Shown: positions 44,541 through 60,438 of the stretch, one piece after another
Layout of the letters: every line of letters starts with the position of its first letter
How positions within the stretch are numbered: position 1 is the stretch's first letter
Source: an uncultured Bacteroidota bacterium
GTDB lineage: Bacteria; Bacteroidota; Bacteroidia; Flavobacteriales; Flavobacteriaceae
DNA length: 64,000 bases
Reading direction: 5' to 3'
Assembly: GCA_913062555.1 (NCBI GenBank)
Contig: CAJXVU010000001.1
Coordinates: 62,001 to 126,000, forward strand
Translations under genes and position numbers: made by a program
The notes under the pieces: generated by a model
Databases searched by the model: none
Told to the model about the DNA's origin: nothing
Seen by the model: the letters and a program-made list of their open reading frames with translations, nothing else

Positions 44541-44912
44541 ATGCAATTATCAAAGACCGAAGAGCAATTAATGCAGCATATATGGAAACTTAAAAAGGCC
44601 TTTATGAAGGATATCTTAGAAGCTTATCCAAATCAAAAGCCTGCAACAACAACTATTGCTACGCTTTTAAAACGAATGACAGACAAAGGTTTTATAGACT
44701 ATAAACTCTATGGGAAGTCTCGTGAATACTTTCCTTTAGTTAAAAAGAAAGATTATTTCTCAAAACATGTTAATGGGTTAATCAAGAATTTTTTTAATGA
44801 CAGTGCTTCTCAATTCGCTTCATTTTTCACTAAAGAAACCAACCTTAGCATGGAAGAATTAGAACAATTGAAATCACTTATTGATAGCGAACTTAAAAAG
44901 AAAAAGCCATGA
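44541..44912 (+). CDS. BlaI/MecI/CopY-family repressor
   Basis: Winged-helix TEEQLMQHIWKLKKAFMKDILEAYP...TTIATLLKRMTDKGFIDYKLYGKSREYFP. Confidence 0.93.
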   Translation: MQLSKTEEQLMQHIWKLKKAFMKDILEAYPNQKPATTTIATLLKRMTDKGFIDYKLYGKSREYFPLVKKKDYFSKHVNGLIKNFFNDSASQFASFFTKETNLSMEELEQLKSLIDSELKKKKP

Positions 44913-46933
44913 TATTGTATATCTTAAAATTTAGTGCATGCTTAGCGCTGTTTCTGGCCTTCTATAAACTCGTTTTAGAAAAAGAAAACATGCATACATT
45001 TAAACGTTTCTTTTTATTAGGAGCACTAATACTCTCCTTAGTCATCCCTCTAATAACTTTCACCTATTATGTAATGCCTACAGCAGAAATTATTCAAAAT
45101 GTCACATTGGAAAACGCTGCAGCAATTTCTGAAGTGCAAATTAACTACTTACCCGTTGTTTTGTGGTCCATTTATGGTATTGGTCTACTTCTGTTTGGCT
45201 TTAAGTTTATAAAAAATCTTTCTGATCTATCTTTTAAAATAAAACGTAATCCTAAACAAAAAGTAAGGAGTATTACTAATGTTCTATTACAAGATTTAAT
45301 AACGCCACATACCTTTTTTAACTTTATCTTTTACAATAAACAAAAATATGAAGCTAATGAAATTCCACAAGAAGTACTATGGCACGAGCAAACTCACGCT
45401 AGCCAAAAACATAGTATTGATGTGGTATTTATAGAATTGCTTCAAGTTATATTTTGGTTCAATCCCCTGCTCTACATAATAAAACATGTTATAAAATTAA
45501 ATCATGAATTTTTAGCAGATCAGTCCGTTCTAAACAGAGGGGTTGAAACTACTAAGTATCAAAAATCTTTATTGGCATTCTCATCAAATGCCGGGCATCC
45601 ACAATTGGCAAATGCCATCAATTATTCATTAATCAAAAAACGATTTACTGTTATGAAAACTCAAACCTCTAAACGAGCCATTTGGTTACGAAGCCTTGTA
45701 CTTCTCCCATTACTGGCAATTACATTATTTAGCTTTAGTAAAAAAGTTATAATTGAAAAGACCTCCGACTTAAAAACGGAGACAATCAACGATTATACAC
45801 CCTTAACATTAGTACAGGAAAAAGCAACTAAAGCTCAAGTCAAAGAATACAATAAACTGGCAAAAAAATATAATGACATGCCACAAGATGATATGATTAT
45901 TAGAAAAAATGATATCGCACGTCTTAAACAATTATACAGTTTAATGTCTGAAGATCAAAAGAAAAACGCAGAGACTTTTCCTGATATTCCTGATCCTATT
46001 GCTCCAATCGCTATAAAGGTTATAGAGGCCCTTCCCCCAAATGCAACAGCGGCACAAAAAAGAAAATATAAAGAAGGATATAAAGCTGCCAAAGCTGGGA
46101 TGAAAGCGCAAAAAGAGAAACTAGTAAAGGTTCGAGAAATTCGCAGCGATGACGAACGACTTAGATTGAAAGAAGAAAAAATGGCTCATAGAGAATCACA
46201 AGCAGCAGCTAGAGTTCTTAAGCTAAAAGCTCAAAAAGGCGAACTAGTTAAAGTTAGAGAAATACAATCTGTCAAGTTGAAAGAAGAAAGATTGGCTCAT
46301 AGAGAATCTCAAGCAGCAGCTAGAGTTCTTAAGCTAAAAGCTCAAAAAGGGGAACTGGTTAAAGTTAGAGAAATACAATCTGTCAAATTGAAACAAGAAA
46401 AATTGGCTCATAGAGAATCTCAAGCAGCAGCAAGAGTTCTCAAGCTAAAAGCTCAAAAAGGAGAGCTAGTTAAAATTAGAGAAATTCGTTCTACTGAAGA
46501 GAGAAAACGATTAAAAGAAGTAAAATTAGAACATAGAGAATCACAAGCAGCAGCAAGAGTTCTCAAGCTAAAAGCTCAAAAAGGAGAGTTAGTTAAAGTT
46601 AGAGAAATACAATCTGTTAAATTGAAAGAAGAAAAGTTGGCTCAAAAAGAATCACGGGCAGCTGCGAAAGTCATTAGACTTAAAGCTCAAAAAGAGAGAC
46701 GCATTGAAGTTCGAGAAATTCTTCCACCACCACCTCCTAAAAATCCGATCGATCACATTAAAGACATGGCAAAAAAAGGCGCAACTTTCATTTATGATGG
46801 TGCATCAATATCATCAAAAAAAGCAATACAACTTATGCGCTCTAATAAGAAGTTAAATGTTGTGACAAACCATACTGATAATAATAATTATGTAGTTACC
46901 ATATCTAAAAGACCAATTGTTATAGAAGATTAA
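44909..46933 (+). CDS. M56-family (BlaR1-like) membrane metallopeptidase with repeat-rich C-terminus
   Basis: TM helices, HEQTHASQKHSIDVVFIELLQVIFWFNPLLY and HEFLADQSVL; overlaps blaI by 4 nt. Confidence 0.93.
   Translation: MILYILKFSACLALFLAFYKLVLEKENMHTFKRFFLLGALILSLVIPLITFTYYVMPTAEIIQNVTLENAAAISEVQINYLPVVLWSIYGIGLLLFGFKFIKNLSDLSFKIKRNPKQKVRSITNVLLQDLITPHTFFNFIFYNKQKYEANEIPQEVLWHEQTHASQKHSIDVVFIELLQVIFWFNPLLYIIKHVIKLNHEFLADQSVLNRGVETTKYQKSLLAFSSNAGHPQLANAINYSLIKKRFTVMKTQTSKRAIWLRSLVLLPLLAITLFSFSKKVIIEKTSDLKTETINDYTPLTLVQEKATKAQVKEYNKLAKKYNDMPQDDMIIRKNDIARLKQLYSLMSEDQKKNAETFPDIPDPIAPIAIKVIEALPPNATAAQKRKYKEGYKAAKAGMKAQKEKLVKVREIRSDDERLRLKEEKMAHRESQAAARVLKLKAQKGELVKVREIQSVKLKEERLAHRESQAAARVLKLKAQKGELVKVREIQSVKLKQEKLAHRESQAAARVLKLKAQKGELVKIREIRSTEERKRLKEVKLEHRESQAAARVLKLKAQKGELVKVREIQSVKLKEEKLAQKESRAAAKVIRLKAQKERRIEVREILPPPPPKNPIDHIKDMAKKGATFIYDGASISSKKAIQLMRSNKKLNVVTNHTDNNNYVVTISKRPIVIED
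46072..46720 (+). repeat. In-frame tandem repeats (about 111-123 bp) in the M56 protein
   Basis: Units (AHRESQAAARVLKLKAQKGELVKVREIQSVKLKEEKL) recur about five times with high nucleotide identity; edge units degenerate. Confidence 0.92.
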
Positions 46934-48243: not shown

Positions 48244-48915
48244 ATGAACAGTGTTATTAAAAGCAAAATAGCTTTTATAAATAAATTAATTAAAGTTGGT
48301 AATTTTAAATTTATTTGGGATGCATTTGCAAGAAGGATTAGTTCGGAAGAACTCGCAATGGGTTTTAAAAAAGATTTAAGTATTGAGCATCCAGAACCAA
48401 GATCTTTAAAAAAAATTAGCACCCGAGTTTTTAATTCAGGTGATGAGAGTTTTTTTACAGATAATTCTATTGATCCAATAATTTTCCAATTTCAAACCTG
48501 TTATGTTGCCATAACAGATGATAATATTCCATGCTCCAGAATATGGCTTATTGACCCTTCTCAAAATAAAAAATTAAGCGCCATTTGGGGTAACAACTTC
48601 CCTCAGTTAAATAATGATGAAGTATTATTAGAAAATGTATATACCCTTCCAAAATATCGAGGCTTGGGAATCATGCCTTCAATTTTACATCAAATAGCAG
48701 AAAGAGGCAAGTTACAAGGCGCTAAGTATGCCATTACTTTTGGATCTGCGCATAACACCAATACGTCAAGATCCTTCCATTATGCAGGATTTCAGCCCTA
48801 TGTCTTACGAAAAGTAAAGTGGTTCTTGTTTAGGAAATCCATAAACTTTCAGGAAATTCCAGATGATCTAACAACCCATTACAATAATATAACACGAAGA
48901 ATGCCTAGATCTTAA
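48244..48915 (+). CDS. GNAT-like N-acyltransferase
   Basis: ENVYTLPKYRGLGIMPSILHQIAERGKLQGAKYAITFGSAHNTNTSRSFHYAGFQPY resembles the GNAT acyl-CoA-binding motif and strand order. Confidence 0.75.
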   Translation: MNSVIKSKIAFINKLIKVGNFKFIWDAFARRISSEELAMGFKKDLSIEHPEPRSLKKISTRVFNSGDESFFTDNSIDPIIFQFQTCYVAITDDNIPCSRIWLIDPSQNKKLSAIWGNNFPQLNNDEVLLENVYTLPKYRGLGIMPSILHQIAERGKLQGAKYAITFGSAHNTNTSRSFHYAGFQPYVLRKVKWFLFRKSINFQEIPDDLTTHYNNITRRMPRS

Positions 48916-48954: not shown

Positions 48955-50415
48955 TTATCTTTTAACTTTTTTACCGCTAGCACTAATTTTCATCGATGCT
49001 TCAAAAATTATTTTTTGAGGAATTTTATAAAGTGCTAATTTTTCTGAACATTTTTGAAGTATTTTCTCTTCCATATGGCTTTTATCAACATTGTTTTTAA
49101 GAACTACTGTTGCATGAATTCCCTCCCCTAGCAGGTCATCATCAACACCTGATATCGTACAATCCATTATTTCGGGGATTGTAAGTATAACTTCTTCAAT
49201 TTCTTTTGGGCTAACGCGTTTACCTCCAACTTTTATTATTTCCTTCTTTCTCGCAACTAAATAATAAAACCCATCCTTATCCATTTTAGCGATATCACCG
49301 GTATGTAACCATCCATCTTTTAATGTGTTCTTTGAATTCAACTCTTCCCTAAAATAACCCAACATAACATTTTCGCCTGAAGCTAAAAGTTCACCTTCTT
49401 CATTTATTCCAACTACTACTCCTTGCTCATCGACAATTTTCAAGTCAACACCAGGAATACCTTTCCCTATTGAGCTTGTTTTTAATTTTAGAAATTCAGG
49501 AGGCAAAATTGATAATCGAGCTGTAGCTTCTGTTTGTCCATACATCACATAAAACTCTGTTTTTGGGAATGTTTCTACAAACTCTTCAATAAAAACAGCA
49601 TGAAGTTTTCCTCCGGCTTGAGTAACATATCTTAAGTCTGGAAATTCAGTTTGTTTGAACGATTGAGATTTTTTTAATAATATTTGAAAATGACTTGGAA
49701 CTCCCGAAAAACCAGTACAATTATATGTTTTTAAGTTATTAATAAAAGAACCTATAAACATAAAACTGTTATTTAAAACCATTGACGCTCCAACTTTTAA
49801 ATGGGTGTGTAAAAGCGAAAGTCCATAGCAATAATAAAATGGTAGTACAACACTAATTCTATCCTTTGAAGTTAGCTTTAAAATTTCTTTAATTGAATCT
49901 GTGTTCGAGATAATGTTTTGATGACTAATCATAACTCCTTTTGGGAATCCAGTCGAGCCTGAAGTGAATAATATTTCTGCTAGTGAGTGTTTTTTACAAT
50001 CAGTATTGAATGTTTCTTGTTTTTGAACCTCAATAATTTGGCTTAATTCCTTTTCATTAATACAAGATATCGCTTTCTCAAACTTTACTTTTCTTTGCAA
50101 ACTAGCTGCAATAAATACGGTGTCACAATAGGTGAATTTGGACACATAATCTAAATTTCCTTGTTCTATATCAAAATTTAAGGGAACACAAATATTACCA
50201 GACTTTAAAATGCCTAAGTAAGCGGTAATAAAAAAGACTGAATTGGGACTTATCAATATTACATTTTGATTTTCACCAATGGTGTTTTTTAAATAAGACG
50301 CAACGCTTATACTATTTTCATATAGCTTTTTAAATGAAATTGTTTCATTTGAACCAACTACAAAGTCCTTATCCCTGTTTTGTGTTGAATCAAATAAGTA
50401 ATCAAAAACATTCAT
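48955..50415 (-). CDS. AMP-forming acyl ligase (class I adenylate-forming enzyme)
   Basis: EILFTSGSTGFPKGVMISHQN, VMYGQTEATARLS, GWLHTGDIAKMDKDGFYYLVARKKEIIKVGGKRVSPKEIE. Confidence 0.93.
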   Translation of the reverse strand: MNVFDYLFDSTQNRDKDFVVGSNETISFKKLYENSISVASYLKNTIGENQNVILISPNSVFFITAYLGILKSGNICVPLNFDIEQGNLDYVSKFTYCDTVFIAASLQRKVKFEKAISCINEKELSQIIEVQKQETFNTDCKKHSLAEILFTSGSTGFPKGVMISHQNIISNTDSIKEILKLTSKDRISVVLPFYYCYGLSLLHTHLKVGASMVLNNSFMFIGSFINNLKTYNCTGFSGVPSHFQILLKKSQSFKQTEFPDLRYVTQAGGKLHAVFIEEFVETFPKTEFYVMYGQTEATARLSILPPEFLKLKTSSIGKGIPGVDLKIVDEQGVVVGINEEGELLASGENVMLGYFREELNSKNTLKDGWLHTGDIAKMDKDGFYYLVARKKEIIKVGGKRVSPKEIEEVILTIPEIMDCTISGVDDDLLGEGIHATVVLKNNVDKSHMEEKILQKCSEKLALYKIPQKIIFEASMKISASGKKVKR

Positions 50416-50429
50416 AAACTTTTAATTAA

Positions 50430-51413
50430 TTAAAATATTGGTTTCATTCTTAAATACTCGGTAGTCTTTCTTTTTCTTTCAAAATTTTTGTAAATATTTT
50501 CTATTTCTGTTGACGACTTACCCATTACTGCTGCCACTTCTTTTGCGTCATAATTATTCTCCCAACCATACCAAATTAAATCCATAGATTCAAAAGGCAT
50601 CTGGTAGAAAAAATCTTCTTGTGTTTGCTCTGCAGTATAAGTGTCGGTAGTTGGCGTTCTATCAATTATTTCTTGAGGTACACCCAAATAACTTGCCAGT
50701 TGATAAACCTGAGTTTTATACAAATGTCCGATTGGCATTATATCGGCACCGCCATCACCATATTTTACAAAAAACCCCTGTTCTACTTCATGTTTATTTG
50801 GAGTTCCAATAACCGCATAATGCAAGCTTTCAGCATAATAATATAACATACTCATTCTACAACGTTGCTTGAAATTTGTCGCTGCAACAATTTGCAAGTA
50901 TTCCTTAGCAGGCAAAAGTTTACTTCGTATTTCTCCAGATGGTTTAATTACTGTTATGGAAAACACTGCTGGTAAGTTTTCTGTAATGTTTTGCTTTATT
51001 TCAATTTTAGCTTTGTCAACTTCAGGATCAAAATCGACAATAACCTTTGCAATAGCTTCATCCCTTCTTTGGTAACATCCAAAACCATCTAGCGCCTTTG
51101 TAATCTCTTCTACTTTTGTGCTTACACCAAATTTTTTCGCTAGTTTTTCTGCCAAAAACAGGCTATCATCACTAGAATCCTTTTCTGGAAGCATTATCCC
51201 TGTTACTTTTTCGGGACCAAATGCCTTAGCAGATAATGCCATGACCACCGAGGAGTCTATACCGCCACTTATACCTACAACAGCCCCTCTGCGCTGCAAT
51301 GTACGTCCGACATCTCTTTTTAGATTTACAATTATTTCGTTACAAACTTTTTCAACATTTTCAAAATGTAATATATTTTTTGAAAATGGTACATGTTTTC
51401 CAGATGTGCTCAT
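50430..51413 (-). CDS. NAD synthase-like (NadE family) ATP-pyrophosphatase
   Basis: GISGGIDSSVVMALSAKAFGPEKVTGIMLPE, GTPNKHEVEQGFFVKYGDGGADIMPIGHLYKTQVYQLASYLGVP. Confidence 0.88.
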   Translation of the reverse strand: MSTSGKHVPFSKNILHFENVEKVCNEIIVNLKRDVGRTLQRRGAVVGISGGIDSSVVMALSAKAFGPEKVTGIMLPEKDSSDDSLFLAEKLAKKFGVSTKVEEITKALDGFGCYQRRDEAIAKVIVDFDPEVDKAKIEIKQNITENLPAVFSITVIKPSGEIRSKLLPAKEYLQIVAATNFKQRCRMSMLYYYAESLHYAVIGTPNKHEVEQGFFVKYGDGGADIMPIGHLYKTQVYQLASYLGVPQEIIDRTPTTDTYTAEQTQEDFFYQMPFESMDLIWYGWENNYDAKEVAAVMGKSSTEIENIYKNFERKRKTTEYLRMKPIF

Positions 51414-51419
51414 AAAATG

Positions 51420-53396
51420 TTATTCTATTATTGTTTTATCAAACTTAATCAGGTCTGTTTCTGCTAATTTAGGAATTGATTTATTAATAAATAAATCATA
51501 TAATATTTGAGTTGATAAAATTGCTGTAATTGCCATATTATCAATTTCCGAAACTTGGCTATTGTTTTGCATTTTTGCCAGTAATTGACTCACATATTTT
51601 GGGTTAAAAACACCATAATCATTAAGTTTTGTATTGGTGAGCATTGATTTTAAATACTCCGGGAGGTCTTCTAAACTAAAGGCACTCTTGATTGGTGCTC
51701 TATAAGCTTGTTTTGGTCTATTTAAGATAGACTCAGGCATCCTTCCATTCATTATTTTTTTTAATAGGAACTTTTCATTTAATCCATTGAGTTTTAAATC
51801 TGGGTGTAAAGACATCGAAAACTCTATTAGCCTATGATCTAAAAAAGGATATCGTCCTTCAACTGAATTGGCCATAGTCATTCTATCACCTTGTGAGGAC
51901 AACAAATATCCTGACATAAAAAAATTTAATTCAATCCACTGTGCTTTTGTAAGATAATCATAACCATCTAGTTTGTGTTTTAATTCTTTTTCAACTTTTA
52001 AAACTGGATTATAGTCATTAATGGTTTCTTTGTATTTTGGTGATAAATAATTATTTATTCTAGAGGTGTTATTCCATCTTAATAGATGTGAATATATGGG
52101 TGATGATGTTTCGCTAAGTTTATATCCAAAAAACAGTTTTAAAACATTAGCTGTAGCCTTCTCTATGAATGGTAGGTAAGGGTATAGTTTTTTAAGTAAT
52201 AGTGGACGGTATTTTGATTCTGGATCTCTGGCCCAAAAATGCTTAATCTTGGTTTCTTTAAATATATTATATCCTCCAAAAAGTTCATCTGCACCTTCAC
52301 CAGTTATGACAACTTTAATCCCTTTATCTTTAACCTTGTCTGCAAGTAAGGACATTGGCATAGGTGCCGTTCTTAACAAAGGAGTTTCAGAATGCCATAT
52401 TACATTTTTAAAATTTTCTGCAATGTCCGTGGAACTACAAATCACGCTTGAATGCTGGGTATTAAAATAAGATACAGCAATATTTTGATACGAAGTCTCA
52501 TCAAAATCTTTCTCAGTAAAACCAACTGAAAAAGTTTGTAGTTTATCCGGCGAAATATTTTTAATATACGATGTTGTAATACTAGAATCGAGCCCTCCAC
52601 TTAAGTATGCTGCAACCTGTACATCTGCCCTAAGCCTTAATTTTATGGCATCATTAAAAATAGTTTCGAATGCTGCAGCTGCTTGGTCAACATTTCTATA
52701 CTTGTATTCATTGGGCTTAAATATTGGCAATTCCCAATATTTAGATATGGATTGAGTATTGGCATTAATTGTCATATAAGTTCCTGGTGGAACCTCAAAA
52801 ACCCCCTCAAAAGCAGTATTTGGAGTTAGGGAAGTCCAAAACGTGAAATACTCAGAAAGTGCTTTTGCTGAAATTTTTGGAACTATTCCTGGAAACTCAA
52901 ATAGTGATTTAATTTCAGAAGCAAAAACAAAAGCATCATTAACATTGGTGTAAAATAAAGGTCTTATTCCAACTCTATCTCTTGCCAAAAATAATTCTTG
53001 TTTGGATTTGTCCCAAATTGCAATCGCAAATTGACCGTTTAATTTGTTGAGAAATTCAGGCCCATACTCTTCATATAAATGGATGACAACCTCGGTATCG
53101 CTATTTGTTTTAAACTTGTGGTTTTTTTCTAACAGCTCTTTTCTAAGTTCAATATAATTGTATATTTCACCATTAAATACAATCCACAATGTCTCATCAG
53201 AATTTGAGAGTGGCATTGTTCCTGTATTTAAATCAATAACACTTAACCTAACACTCCCCAAACCAACAGTATTCGATAAATAAATTCCACTTTGATCTGG
53301 ACCTCTATGCTTTATTCTGGAAAGCATATATTTTAAGGTCTTTATTTTAGTATCTGTATTCTCTTGAGACTTATAAAATCCAGCAATACCACACAT
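51420..53396 (-). CDS. asnB: Glutamine-hydrolysing asparagine synthase-like amidotransferase
   Basis: N-terminal MCGIAGFYKSQ (catalytic Cys2), FNGEIYNYIELR, SGGLDSSI PP-loop, GEGADELFGGYN. Confidence 0.92.
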   Translation of the reverse strand: MCGIAGFYKSQENTDTKIKTLKYMLSRIKHRGPDQSGIYLSNTVGLGSVRLSVIDLNTGTMPLSNSDETLWIVFNGEIYNYIELRKELLEKNHKFKTNSDTEVVIHLYEEYGPEFLNKLNGQFAIAIWDKSKQELFLARDRVGIRPLFYTNVNDAFVFASEIKSLFEFPGIVPKISAKALSEYFTFWTSLTPNTAFEGVFEVPPGTYMTINANTQSISKYWELPIFKPNEYKYRNVDQAAAAFETIFNDAIKLRLRADVQVAAYLSGGLDSSITTSYIKNISPDKLQTFSVGFTEKDFDETSYQNIAVSYFNTQHSSVICSSTDIAENFKNVIWHSETPLLRTAPMPMSLLADKVKDKGIKVVITGEGADELFGGYNIFKETKIKHFWARDPESKYRPLLLKKLYPYLPFIEKATANVLKLFFGYKLSETSSPIYSHLLRWNNTSRINNYLSPKYKETINDYNPVLKVEKELKHKLDGYDYLTKAQWIELNFFMSGYLLSSQGDRMTMANSVEGRYPFLDHRLIEFSMSLHPDLKLNGLNEKFLLKKIMNGRMPESILNRPKQAYRAPIKSAFSLEDLPEYLKSMLTNTKLNDYGVFNPKYVSQLLAKMQNNSQVSEIDNMAITAILSTQILYDLFINKSIPKLAETDLIKFDKTIIE

Positions 53397-53420
53397 ATTA
53401 TAATGGAAAGATTGTCATGA

Positions 53421-53669
53421 TTAAAGTTTAGCCTTCAAAAAAGCAACAATATTATTAATCGATTTGAAATTTTCAACAACCAATTCATCATCATTGGTAG
53501 TGACATTAAATTCTTCATTTAAGAATTCAATTAAAAAGAGTAACCCCATAGAATCTAGAACCCCTTCTTCAAAAATCAATGTTTCATTTGTTATGTTTTT
53601 TACATCTTCAAATGTAGATTTTACAATATAATCTCTAATCTTATCTTCTAATTCAATTCCTATAAGCAT
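53421..53669 (-). CDS. Acyl/peptidyl carrier protein
   Basis: 82 aa, EGVLDSMGLLFLIEFLNEEFNV with the DS(M) phosphopantetheine-attachment serine. Confidence 0.85.
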   Translation of the reverse strand: MLIGIELEDKIRDYIVKSTFEDVKNITNETLIFEEGVLDSMGLLFLIEFLNEEFNVTTNDDELVVENFKSINNIVAFLKAKL

Positions 53670-58418: not shown

Positions 58419-59378
58419 ATGAATACTATCGCACAAATAGACAATAATTTTATAGATACCAACACTAACTTTTCTGAGTTGATTTTGGCATTAAAAACCG
58501 GATTTTTTTCAAATACTGTTATTGTTCCAATGCGTCATCACCATGATTTTCCGAACCCTAACGTTGGGGCTGATTCTACATTATTATTAATGCCTGCATG
58601 GAACCCCAGTCAAGATTCTGGAGTTAAAATTGTGACCGTAAGTCCGGAAAATGGAAAATTTGATTTACCTTCTATCCAAGGAACTTATATTTATTTTGAT
58701 GCCGAAAAAGGCAGCATAAAAGCCATATTAGAAGCTAAAAGTTTAACCGCTAAACGTACAGCGGCAGCATCAGCTTTAGCATCATCATTTTTATCAAAAA
58801 CAGATGCCTCATCATTACTAATGATTGGTACAGGTGCCCTTTCCCTAAATTTAATAAAAGCACATACCTCTGTACGTCCAATTGCGAAAGTTTATGTTTG
58901 GGGAAGAAATTTTAAAAAAGCTCAAGCAATTTGTACCGCTCTAAAAGAAGAGAACTTTTCTGTGCAACCAATTAAAACTATTGATGAAAAAATTTCTGAA
59001 GTAGATATTATTTCTTGTGCAACCTTATCCAAAACACCATTGGTATTAGGTAAAAAACTGAGGAAAGGTCAGCATATCGATTTAGTTGGTGCTTATAAAA
59101 AAGACATGAGGGAAGCAGATAATGATGTCATGGCTAAATCTTCAATATTTGTAGACACTTATCAAGGCGGACTTAAAGAAAGTGGGGATATTGTGATTCC
59201 TTTACAAGAAGGGATCATTAAAGAAACGGATATTAAGGCTGATTTTTTCGAACTCTGTTCCAATACCAAGAATGGGCGATGTGATGCCAATGAAATCACC
59301 GTTTTTAAATCGGTTGGCCATGCTTTAGAAGACCTAATTGCGGCAAAATATTATTATAATAAATATAGAAGTGAATAA
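58419..59378 (+). CDS. Ornithine cyclodeaminase/mu-crystallin family protein, probable delta1-pyrroline-2-carboxylate reductase
   Basis: PMRHHHDFP, TAAASALASSFLSKTDASSLLMIGTGALS, KVYVWGRNFKKA, HIDLVGAYKKDMREAD; overlaps the hydroxyproline enzyme gene. Confidence 0.85.
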   Translation: MNTIAQIDNNFIDTNTNFSELILALKTGFFSNTVIVPMRHHHDFPNPNVGADSTLLLMPAWNPSQDSGVKIVTVSPENGKFDLPSIQGTYIYFDAEKGSIKAILEAKSLTAKRTAAASALASSFLSKTDASSLLMIGTGALSLNLIKAHTSVRPIAKVYVWGRNFKKAQAICTALKEENFSVQPIKTIDEKISEVDIISCATLSKTPLVLGKKLRKGQHIDLVGAYKKDMREADNDVMAKSSIFVDTYQGGLKESGDIVIPLQEGIIKETDIKADFFELCSNTKNGRCDANEITVFKSVGHALEDLIAAKYYYNKYRSE

Positions 59379-60438
59379 TACTTACCAAAATATATTAAAT
59401 AAGACCAAATTTCAGCCACCCAAAGATTGGTTACAAATTAAAACTATAGACATGCATACTGGTGGCGAACCACTTCGTGTAATTGTTGAAGGTTTTCCTG
59501 AACTTAAAGGAAATTCAGTACTAGAATACAGACGTGATTGCAAAACCAATTACGACGATCTACGCACTGCATTAATGTTTGAACCTCGTGGTCATGCTGA
59601 CATGTATGGTTGCCTATTATTACCACCAAACGACGATGAGGGTGATTTTGGGATTCTATTCTTGCACAACGAAGGCTATTCAACAATGTGTGGCCATGCA
59701 ATTATTGCTATTTCAACCTTAGCTGTTGAAATGGATTGGATTGATGTGAAAGAAGGAGTCAATACCCTTAAAATTGATGCCCCTTGTGGTAGAATCACAT
59801 CTTATGTAAATGTCAAAGATGGAAAAGTTACTGGTGTTCGTTTTCATTGCGTACCAAGCTTCGTTGTTGGATTAGACAAAACTGTAAATGTAAATGGCTT
59901 AGGAAAGGTTATTTATGATTTAGCCTATGGTGGTGCTTTCTATGCCTATGTAGATATGGCCAAAAATAATTTTGATTTTAATCTAAGCAGGAATGCCTAT
60001 CGTGACATCATTACAAATGGCATGAAAATTAAACATGCCGTAATGAAACAAGACCATGAAATTCTACATCCTTTTGAAGCGGATTTAAGTTTTCTATACG
60101 GTACTATTTTTATTGACAACACAACACAAGTTTCTGGTATTGACAGTCGAAATGTTTGCGTTTTTGCTGAAGGCGAAGTAGATCGCTGCCCAACGGGTTC
60201 TGGCGTTTCTGGCAGAATGGCCATTCATAAATCTCGCAAAGAAATTGATATTGGTGACCATATGACTATTGAGAGTATTACAGATTCTGTTTTTAAAGGC
60301 AGCGTAATTTCTGAAGAAGATTACGGACCATTTAAGGCCGTAATCCCTCAAGTAGAAGGGATGGCACATATTACTGGCATGCAAACTTTTGTAATCGATC
60401 CAAATGACCCTATGAAAAATGGATTCATTTTGAGATAG
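59338..60438 (+). CDS. Proline racemase superfamily, probable trans-3-hydroxy-L-proline dehydratase (start may be GTG at 59371)
   Basis: DMHTGGEPLRV, YSTMCGHAI, and DRCPTGSGVSG with Thr rather than Cys at the second catalytic position. Confidence 0.85.
   Translation: MRQNIIIINIEVNNTYQNILNKTKFQPPKDWLQIKTIDMHTGGEPLRVIVEGFPELKGNSVLEYRRDCKTNYDDLRTALMFEPRGHADMYGCLLLPPNDDEGDFGILFLHNEGYSTMCGHAIIAISTLAVEMDWIDVKEGVNTLKIDAPCGRITSYVNVKDGKVTGVRFHCVPSFVVGLDKTVNVNGLGKVIYDLAYGGAFYAYVDMAKNNFDFNLSRNAYRDIITNGMKIKHAVMKQDHEILHPFEADLSFLYGTIFIDNTTQVSGIDSRNVCVFAEGEVDRCPTGSGVSGRMAIHKSRKEIDIGDHMTIESITDSVFKGSVISEEDYGPFKAVIPQVEGMAHITGMQTFVIDPNDPMKNGFILR

Follow-up and report, generated by a model that had tools for sequence, protein, structure and literature searches.

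A conserved carrier protein, AsnB-like, NadE-like and acyl ligase operon in a Flavobacteriaceae genome, with a possible role in surface-glycan decoration

The operon and its surroundings in the window

The window is the whole stretch of 64 kb analysed here, taken from the genome of an uncultured member of Flavobacteriaceae. On its minus strand, four genes follow one another head to tail in the order ACP, AsnB-like, NadE-like and ligase, with gaps of 24, 6 and 14 nt (Table 1). The first-pass annotation had described four minus-strand genes separated by 6-24 nt, and all of these open reading frames are recovered on that strand and at its coordinates.

Table 1. Genes of the operon and the adjacent acyltransferase gene, by position in the window
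Gene	Position	Strand	Description
Acyl carrier protein (ACP)	53421..53669	-	82 aa; first operon gene; phosphopantetheine Ser40 in LDSMG
AsnB-like glutamine-dependent amidotransferase	51420..53396	-	658 aa; N-terminal class II glutaminase (Cys2) and PP-loop synthetase domain
NadE-like NH3-dependent PP-loop enzyme	50430..51413	-	327 aa; NF002048/PRK00876 subfamily; SGGIDS at 49
AMP-forming acyl:carrier ligase, "type I"	48955..50415	-	486 aa; LPFYYCYGL / MYGQTEATARL
GNAT-like acyltransferase	48244..48915	+	convergent with the ligase; PF00583 22.2 bits, barely above cut-off

The domain assignments of the four operon genes are secure in both Pfam and NCBIfam. The ACP scores 24.4 bits to PF00550 against a cut-off of 20.8 and carries its serine within a DSM motif at 39-41, while its nearest NCBIfam models, which are DltC-like and OlsHI-ACP-like, are each below cut-off. 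The AsnB-like protein matches PF00733 and PF13537 as well as TIGR01536 (515.9 bits) and, under the cut-off, TIGR03108 (418.9 bits); its N-terminus reads MCGI, with SGGLDS at 266 and GEGADE at 366, and it is the sole glutaminase in the operon. The ligase matches PF00501 and PF13193, its closest curated models (PRK06187 and TIGR03098) both being under cut-off, and has TSGSTG at 151, YGQTE at 292 and GWLHTGD at 368; the A4-motif aspartate (FDxS-type) of alpha-amino-acid adenylation domains is missing. With all motif positions located, the earlier statement that the Cys2 and PP-loop of AsnB and the adenylation motifs of the ligase are intact holds. The best PDB match of the ligase is an oxalyl-CoA synthetase; since this is a match at family level only, an identity as oxalate ligase was set aside.

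Homologues of the GNAT-like gene flank the module in four loci of related genomes (L063, L066, L072 and L132), and the adjacent GNAT is therefore a possible partner of the operon. A profile search of the 64 kb gives no match to Wza, Wzc or WcaJ, in agreement with the first reading that exopolysaccharide genes are absent from the window, and no profile match to MBOAT or PrmC-like proteins was found anywhere in it either. None of the five proteins searched has a family match in PADLOC, by which a role in NAD-related anti-phage defence was rejected.

Some other features of the window are recorded here. Upstream of the ACP gene, at 54060-53750 on the minus strand, there is what by eye seems to be a decayed STAS-domain gene: the putative remnant reads MSLEIKCQVNVYTIIGNLDKSNLDVS... 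and then VVINIEKLVHVDDYGMKALIKLHNDALAMRKNLSIIG in a different frame, being interrupted by the frame change and stops. At 58419-60438 there are tandem ornithine-cyclodeaminase-like and proline-racemase-like genes, and such a pair also flanks the module in loci L063 and L132 of Xanthomarina, where the surroundings of the module in the genome are thus conserved. On the other side, a BlaR1-like gene adjoining a BlaI-like gene (44909-46933) contains a 111-nt tandem repeat (46165-46699, 4.7 copies, 82% matches) which encodes KLKAQKGELVKVREI-type repeats.

A conserved module built around a distinct NadE subfamily

The genome that contains the window (89% complete, 105 contigs) was searched for a second nadE and asnB. 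A separate nadE is present on contig C20 (G000:C20:33867-34604), with 176 bits to the equivalog-domain model TIGR00552 against a cut-off of 64, and a separate housekeeping asnB on contig C45, with 933.5 bits to NF006949. The nadE-like and asnB-like genes of the operon are thus not sole copies, and an identity of either as the housekeeping enzyme was rejected. The window AsnB scores 363 bits to the equivalog NF006949 of housekeeping asparagine synthetase B, below the cut-off of 499. An ordinary second nadE-like gene is found as well in other genomes having the special NadE, e.g. G172, G244, G014, G181, G015 and G320. The genome further has a third AsnB, located within a polysaccharide cluster on contig C6 (L060 4478-6382, G000:C6). 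This paralogue scores 506.6 bits to TIGR03108, above its general asparagine synthase score, and judged by its profile scores is likelier than the window AsnB to be the WbpS counterpart.

The NadE-like protein belongs to the NF002048/PRK00876 subfamily, with 425.4 bits to NF002048, over the curated cut-off of 313. Its identity to the housekeeping NadE of its own genome is about 32-34%. When the two are aligned, it retains the SGGIDS loop, the N/R/R helix, GT-N-E and GFFVKYGDGGAD, and thereby resembles the canonical NH3-dependent NadE in the SGGxDS PP-loop, N-x-x-x-R-x-R, GT-N-E and GFF/YxKYGDG segments as well as in fold. It differs from the canonical enzyme in an insert around residues 113-166 (50 aa), which starts with a nearly invariant CYxRRDEA, in a C-terminal PTTDTYxAEQTQEEFF loop replacing the ordinary PSxGL...SDE loop, and in being nearly always accompanied by AsnB, ligase and ACP. 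In the AlphaFold2 model (mean pLDDT 93.6) the insert forms a helix and three strands. The top Foldseek matches are NAD synthetases, with TMt of 0.82-0.86 for the top five, so that by the model the fold and the ATP chemistry are predicted to be NadE-like. Among them is an enzyme from Francisella whose deposited name is NMN synthetase (3fiu), suggesting that a shift of substrate is possible among NadE relatives. Taken from these sequence features, the enzyme looks repurposed away from NAD synthesis, as the first-pass annotation had supposed it might be, and the separate nadE on C20 and the extra-copy status agree with this. Residual or true NAD-synthase activity may nevertheless persist, most catalytic residues and the GFFVKYGDGGAD segment being kept.

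We then present the occurrence of the module in other genomes. With the NadE alignment as query, 84,980 species genomes yield 80 loci, of which 38 have at least 7 kb on either side of nadE. In 37 of these 38 full-flank loci, the ACP, AsnB and ligase are all present on the strand of NadE within 9 kb; the one other locus has all but the ACP detected. As the loci were retrieved by NadE only, the companion genes are independent evidence, and their recurrence is far beyond chance: the four genes are a conserved module rather than chance neighbours. Of the two findings which the first-pass annotation had named as refuting its reading, sole copies of nadE and asnB or a lack of joint conservation in relatives, neither was obtained. 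By contrast, for 36 loci of nadE-like genes under the subfamily cut-off, examined over about 1.5 kb on each side, the partners are adjacent in none. The subfamily itself is rare, the NF002048 cut-off being exceeded in 12 of 297 genomes drawn evenly from the phylum; all 12 have companions adjacent, with all three on the same strand in nine genomes and two of the three in the rest. The module is kept down to about 47-50% NadE identity, and spreads from Flavobacteriaceae to Chloroflexota, including contigs labelled Anaerolinea, Anaerolineae and Oscillochloris. Even where NadE and ligase are separated from the other two genes, the ACP gene stays directly before AsnB (L090, L095, L105 and L122).

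Two single loci deserve a remark. In L148 (7968-9949, G236:C1), the reading frame of the module AsnB is broken into three pieces, and the ligase found nearby, on the opposite strand, belongs to a distant type; this is perhaps a decaying module. In L158 (9325-10512, G160:C41), a NadE-like gene with 114 bits to the module profile is located in an apparent glycan cluster lacking AsnB, ligase and ACP, which may represent another, independent case of NadE being recruited to glycan synthesis. We found no description of the NadE-AsnB-ligase-ACP set in the open-licence literature, where a paper on EmbRS/Rubrivivax has AsnB/WbpS and an MBOAT, whereas an account in subscription journals is possible; as far as that literature goes, the module is a previously undescribed variant of carrier-protein tailoring with a recruited NadE paralogue.

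Exchangeable ligases and the polysaccharide context of relatives

The ligases of the loci are divided into two types. Type I, to which the window ligase belongs, includes 61 ligases with LPFYYCYGL-like and MYGQTEATARL motifs, LPFYYCYGL being the commonest form (36 of 61). Type II includes 12 ligases which have YGLTE instead, mostly with Asp in the A4 region; an FD at A4, in place of the LPFYYCYGL of the window, is found in 11 type-II-like sequences. For one type-II ligase, the score to TIGR03098, the XrtA ligase model, is 450 bits, and the FD of this ligase lines up with that in the A4 motif of a non-ribosomal peptide synthetase. These two results suggest, from the position of the motif, that the type-II ligase probably takes an amino acid, and that type I, mostly with Cys at the A4 place, probably does not.

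Accessory genes differ with the ligase. A PrmC-like N-methyltransferase of the PrmC/HemK family, carrying an NPPY motif (hemK_fam 187.6 bits, above cut-off), is found in nine of 12 type-II loci and in none of the 61 type-I loci (Fisher p 2.3e-9, a value that overstates the evidence because the loci are related). PrmC enzymes methylate the side-chain amide of glutamine, and the presence of a PrmC-like gene thus suggests an amide of this kind in the type-II product. A VOC protein, the nearest model of which is methylmalonyl-CoA epimerase (TIGR03081, 71 bits against a cut-off of 115), adjoins five type-I modules; this hints that the carrier may hold a 2-substituted dicarboxylate. The accessory matches (VOC, MBOAT and PrmC-like) all come from relatives, the window's own genome having only one unlinked MBOAT.

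The trees support the exchange of the ligase. Tree distances of NadE and AsnB correlate with r of 0.81 over 57 loci, while those of NadE and ligase correlate with 0.39 over all loci and 0.81 within type I. Type II forms one clade in the ligase tree, but five to six changes are required to place it on those of NadE and AsnB; several nodes being weakly supported, the safer statement is that the ligase has been swapped more than once. Taken together, AsnB and NadE look like a constant core on which the ligase has been replaced. The first-pass annotation had proposed amidation of a small acid tethered to a carrier. This is still the most economical reading, while a single small acid probably does not cover a family whose ligase is exchangeable.

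The polysaccharide context appears when relatives are included. Genes of the Wza, Wzc or WcaJ families are present in the available flank of 39 of the 80 loci, with a recurring order of WcaJ-Wza-Wzc-ACP-AsnB-NadE-ligase; in about half of the loci the available flank lacks any polysaccharide marker, for which short contigs are part of the reason. Wza, Wzc and WcaJ, together with further sugar transferases and MBOAT, keep appearing as partners across a broad span of lineages. In 11 loci, MBOAT genes of a DltB-type profile adjoin the module or lie within it; the score to TIGR04091 is 170.9 bits, under the cut-off of 375. Some loci (L099, L108, L093 and L121) have, immediately ahead of NadE, a tight group of genes for an additional ACP, an MBOAT and a membrane-anchored protein of 330 aa (cluster 20, without Pfam match), which makes up a Dlt-like set adjoining the module. 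In Flavobacteriaceae, the window included, the module is often located among unrelated genes outside polysaccharide clusters; in the window's genome, the only MBOAT gene is unlinked on the 4.4-kb contig C93 and the polysaccharide cluster is on C6. The glycan link thus has good support in the family, while in this genome it is indirect. The absence of pathway context implied earlier does not extend to relatives, which repeatedly carry the module in exopolysaccharide clusters; this context lies outside the window and would be missed from the window alone.

Proposed pathway, alternatives and known systems

The reading which we favour, at about even chances, is that the operon encodes a carrier-protein pathway in which an amide-bearing acyl group is made for a surface glycan and NadE has been repurposed. 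The substrate, the order of steps, the NadE reaction and the acceptor are what we infer as follows. The ligase would activate a small carboxylic acid with ATP and load it onto the phosphopantetheine of the ACP; for type I, the acid is probably one without an alpha-amino group and may be a dicarboxylic acid. The AsnB-like enzyme would hydrolyse glutamine and amidate a free carboxylate on the tethered or precursor acid. The NadE-like enzyme would then perform a second ATP- and NH3-dependent step, which may be either amidation of another carboxylate or conversion of amide to amidine. As only AsnB has a glutaminase, the ammonia for NadE may come from AsnB or be free. Finally, an acyltransferase would transfer the amide-bearing acyl group to exopolysaccharide or another surface glycan; this could be the MBOAT/DltB-like protein in several relatives, and here perhaps the adjacent GNAT or the C93 MBOAT. 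For the AsnB step there are precedents: the OxyD amidotransferase supplies a malonamate starter (PMC7749508), and in Bacteroidota the AsnB relative WbpS produces the uronamide of a glycan (PMC7468200). For the NadE step, no precedent was found in the open-licence literature.

Other readings share part of this evidence. The ACP-bound amidated acyl group might instead be a building block or product of a soluble secondary metabolite, the polysaccharide neighbours in Bacteroidales being incidental or acquired. Such a small-molecule route fits the isolation of the module among unrelated genes in the window and several Flavobacteriaceae, the OxyD-type malonamate units which feed polyketides (PMC7749508), and the annotation of the nearest PDB relative of AsnB by score as a hydroxyamidotransferase (7ylz). 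We consider it unlikely, however, for the gene families recurring beside the module include no ketosynthase or NRPS-type cluster, and the phylogenetically wide partners are those of polysaccharide export and sugar transfer named above. To the same low degree we would credit a sugar-directed route, in which AsnB makes a uronamide as WbpS does and NadE amidates or amidinates the sugar, while ligase and ACP add an independent N- or O-acyl group; the amide would then be on the sugar. That TIGR03108/WbpS-type AsnB relatives make uronamides (PMC7468200) and that the window AsnB scores 418.9 bits to TIGR03108 speak for it, as does the co-evolution of AsnB and NadE with a swapped ligase, expected if their target is not the acid of the ligase. 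Yet the window AsnB favours TIGR01536 over TIGR03108, opposite to the C6 paralogue, and the adjacency of ACP and AsnB in the split loci suggests that AsnB works on the ACP-bound group.

Two further possibilities concern NadE and the sugar pathway of the type IX secretion system. That the NadE-like protein is a bona fide second NAD synthase, the operon supplying NAD or nucleotide for local use, would be in accordance with the name and cut-off of NF002048, with the retained PP-loop and GFFVKYGDGGAD region and with the NadE fold in Foldseek; but the housekeeping nadE elsewhere in the genome, the tight coupling to ligase, ACP and AsnB and not to NAD genes, and the conserved insert and altered C-terminal loop make it highly improbable. 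The T9SS linking-sugar pathway (seryl-glucuronamide, Wbp/Vim) was considered for the combination of GNAT and AsnB and rejected: the WbpS, VimA and VimE papers (PMC7468200 among them) are without NadE, ligase and ACP, and the presence of the module in the Anaerolinea, Anaerolineae and Oscillochloris contigs also disfavours it.

The carrier-protein pathway for surface glycans has a wider version, which we put forward tentatively and at somewhat less than even chances. The whole NadE subfamily would have left NAD metabolism and turned to substrates bound to a carrier or a glycan, on which it would form an amidine or a second amide, as part of an undescribed carrier-protein route of exopolysaccharide decoration; in this route the ligase slot would be exchangeable, with the AsnB-NadE pair as a general core for amidation that receives different acids. 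A NadE subfamily labelled NAD synthase in databases gains a likely function class, and metabolic models counting this gene as nadE are probably wrong. The pathway predicts that many Bacteroidota and some Chloroflexota carry amide-bearing acyl groups on their exopolysaccharides, which, if true, would alter the charge and hydrogen bonding of biofilm polymers. The module, with its four proteins, is a compact system for studying the recruitment of an essential PP-loop enzyme to a different substrate. Which part sets the acyl group is shown by the exchange of ligases in nature.

Among known systems, OxyD of oxytetracycline synthesis is alike in being an AsnB-like amidotransferase that provides an amide-bearing starter acyl unit (PMC7749508), while the module has a ligase and a NadE-like enzyme, a surface-glycan context in relatives and no polyketide synthase seen. 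WbpS (Porphyromonas gingivalis / Pseudomonas O-antigen) shares the AsnB-family amidation for a Bacteroidota surface glycan, but acts on a uronic acid, and a carrier protein, ligase and NadE partner are not reported there (PMC7468200). The exopolysaccharide families of XrtA/PEP-CTERM systems (TIGR03098 and TIGR03108) likewise place an AMP ligase and an AsnB-like amidotransferase beside EPS genes; the window proteins are under their cut-offs (289 bits against 592 for the ligase, 418.9 against about 817, i.e. 816.9, for AsnB), and the module adds the NadE subfamily. The Dlt system (DltA ligase, DltC carrier, DltB MBOAT and DltD) also combines a ligase with a small carrier, to which relatives of the module add a DltB-like MBOAT. 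Unlike Dlt, the type-I ligase is without the A4 aspartate typical of alpha-amino-acid ligases, the module has two amidating enzymes, no MBOAT is beside it in the window, and the window ACP is below the DltC cut-offs (NF003464 29.8 bits against 68, TIGR01688 20.5 against 52.35). The module may work like a Dlt or XrtA-type carrier system while belonging to neither.
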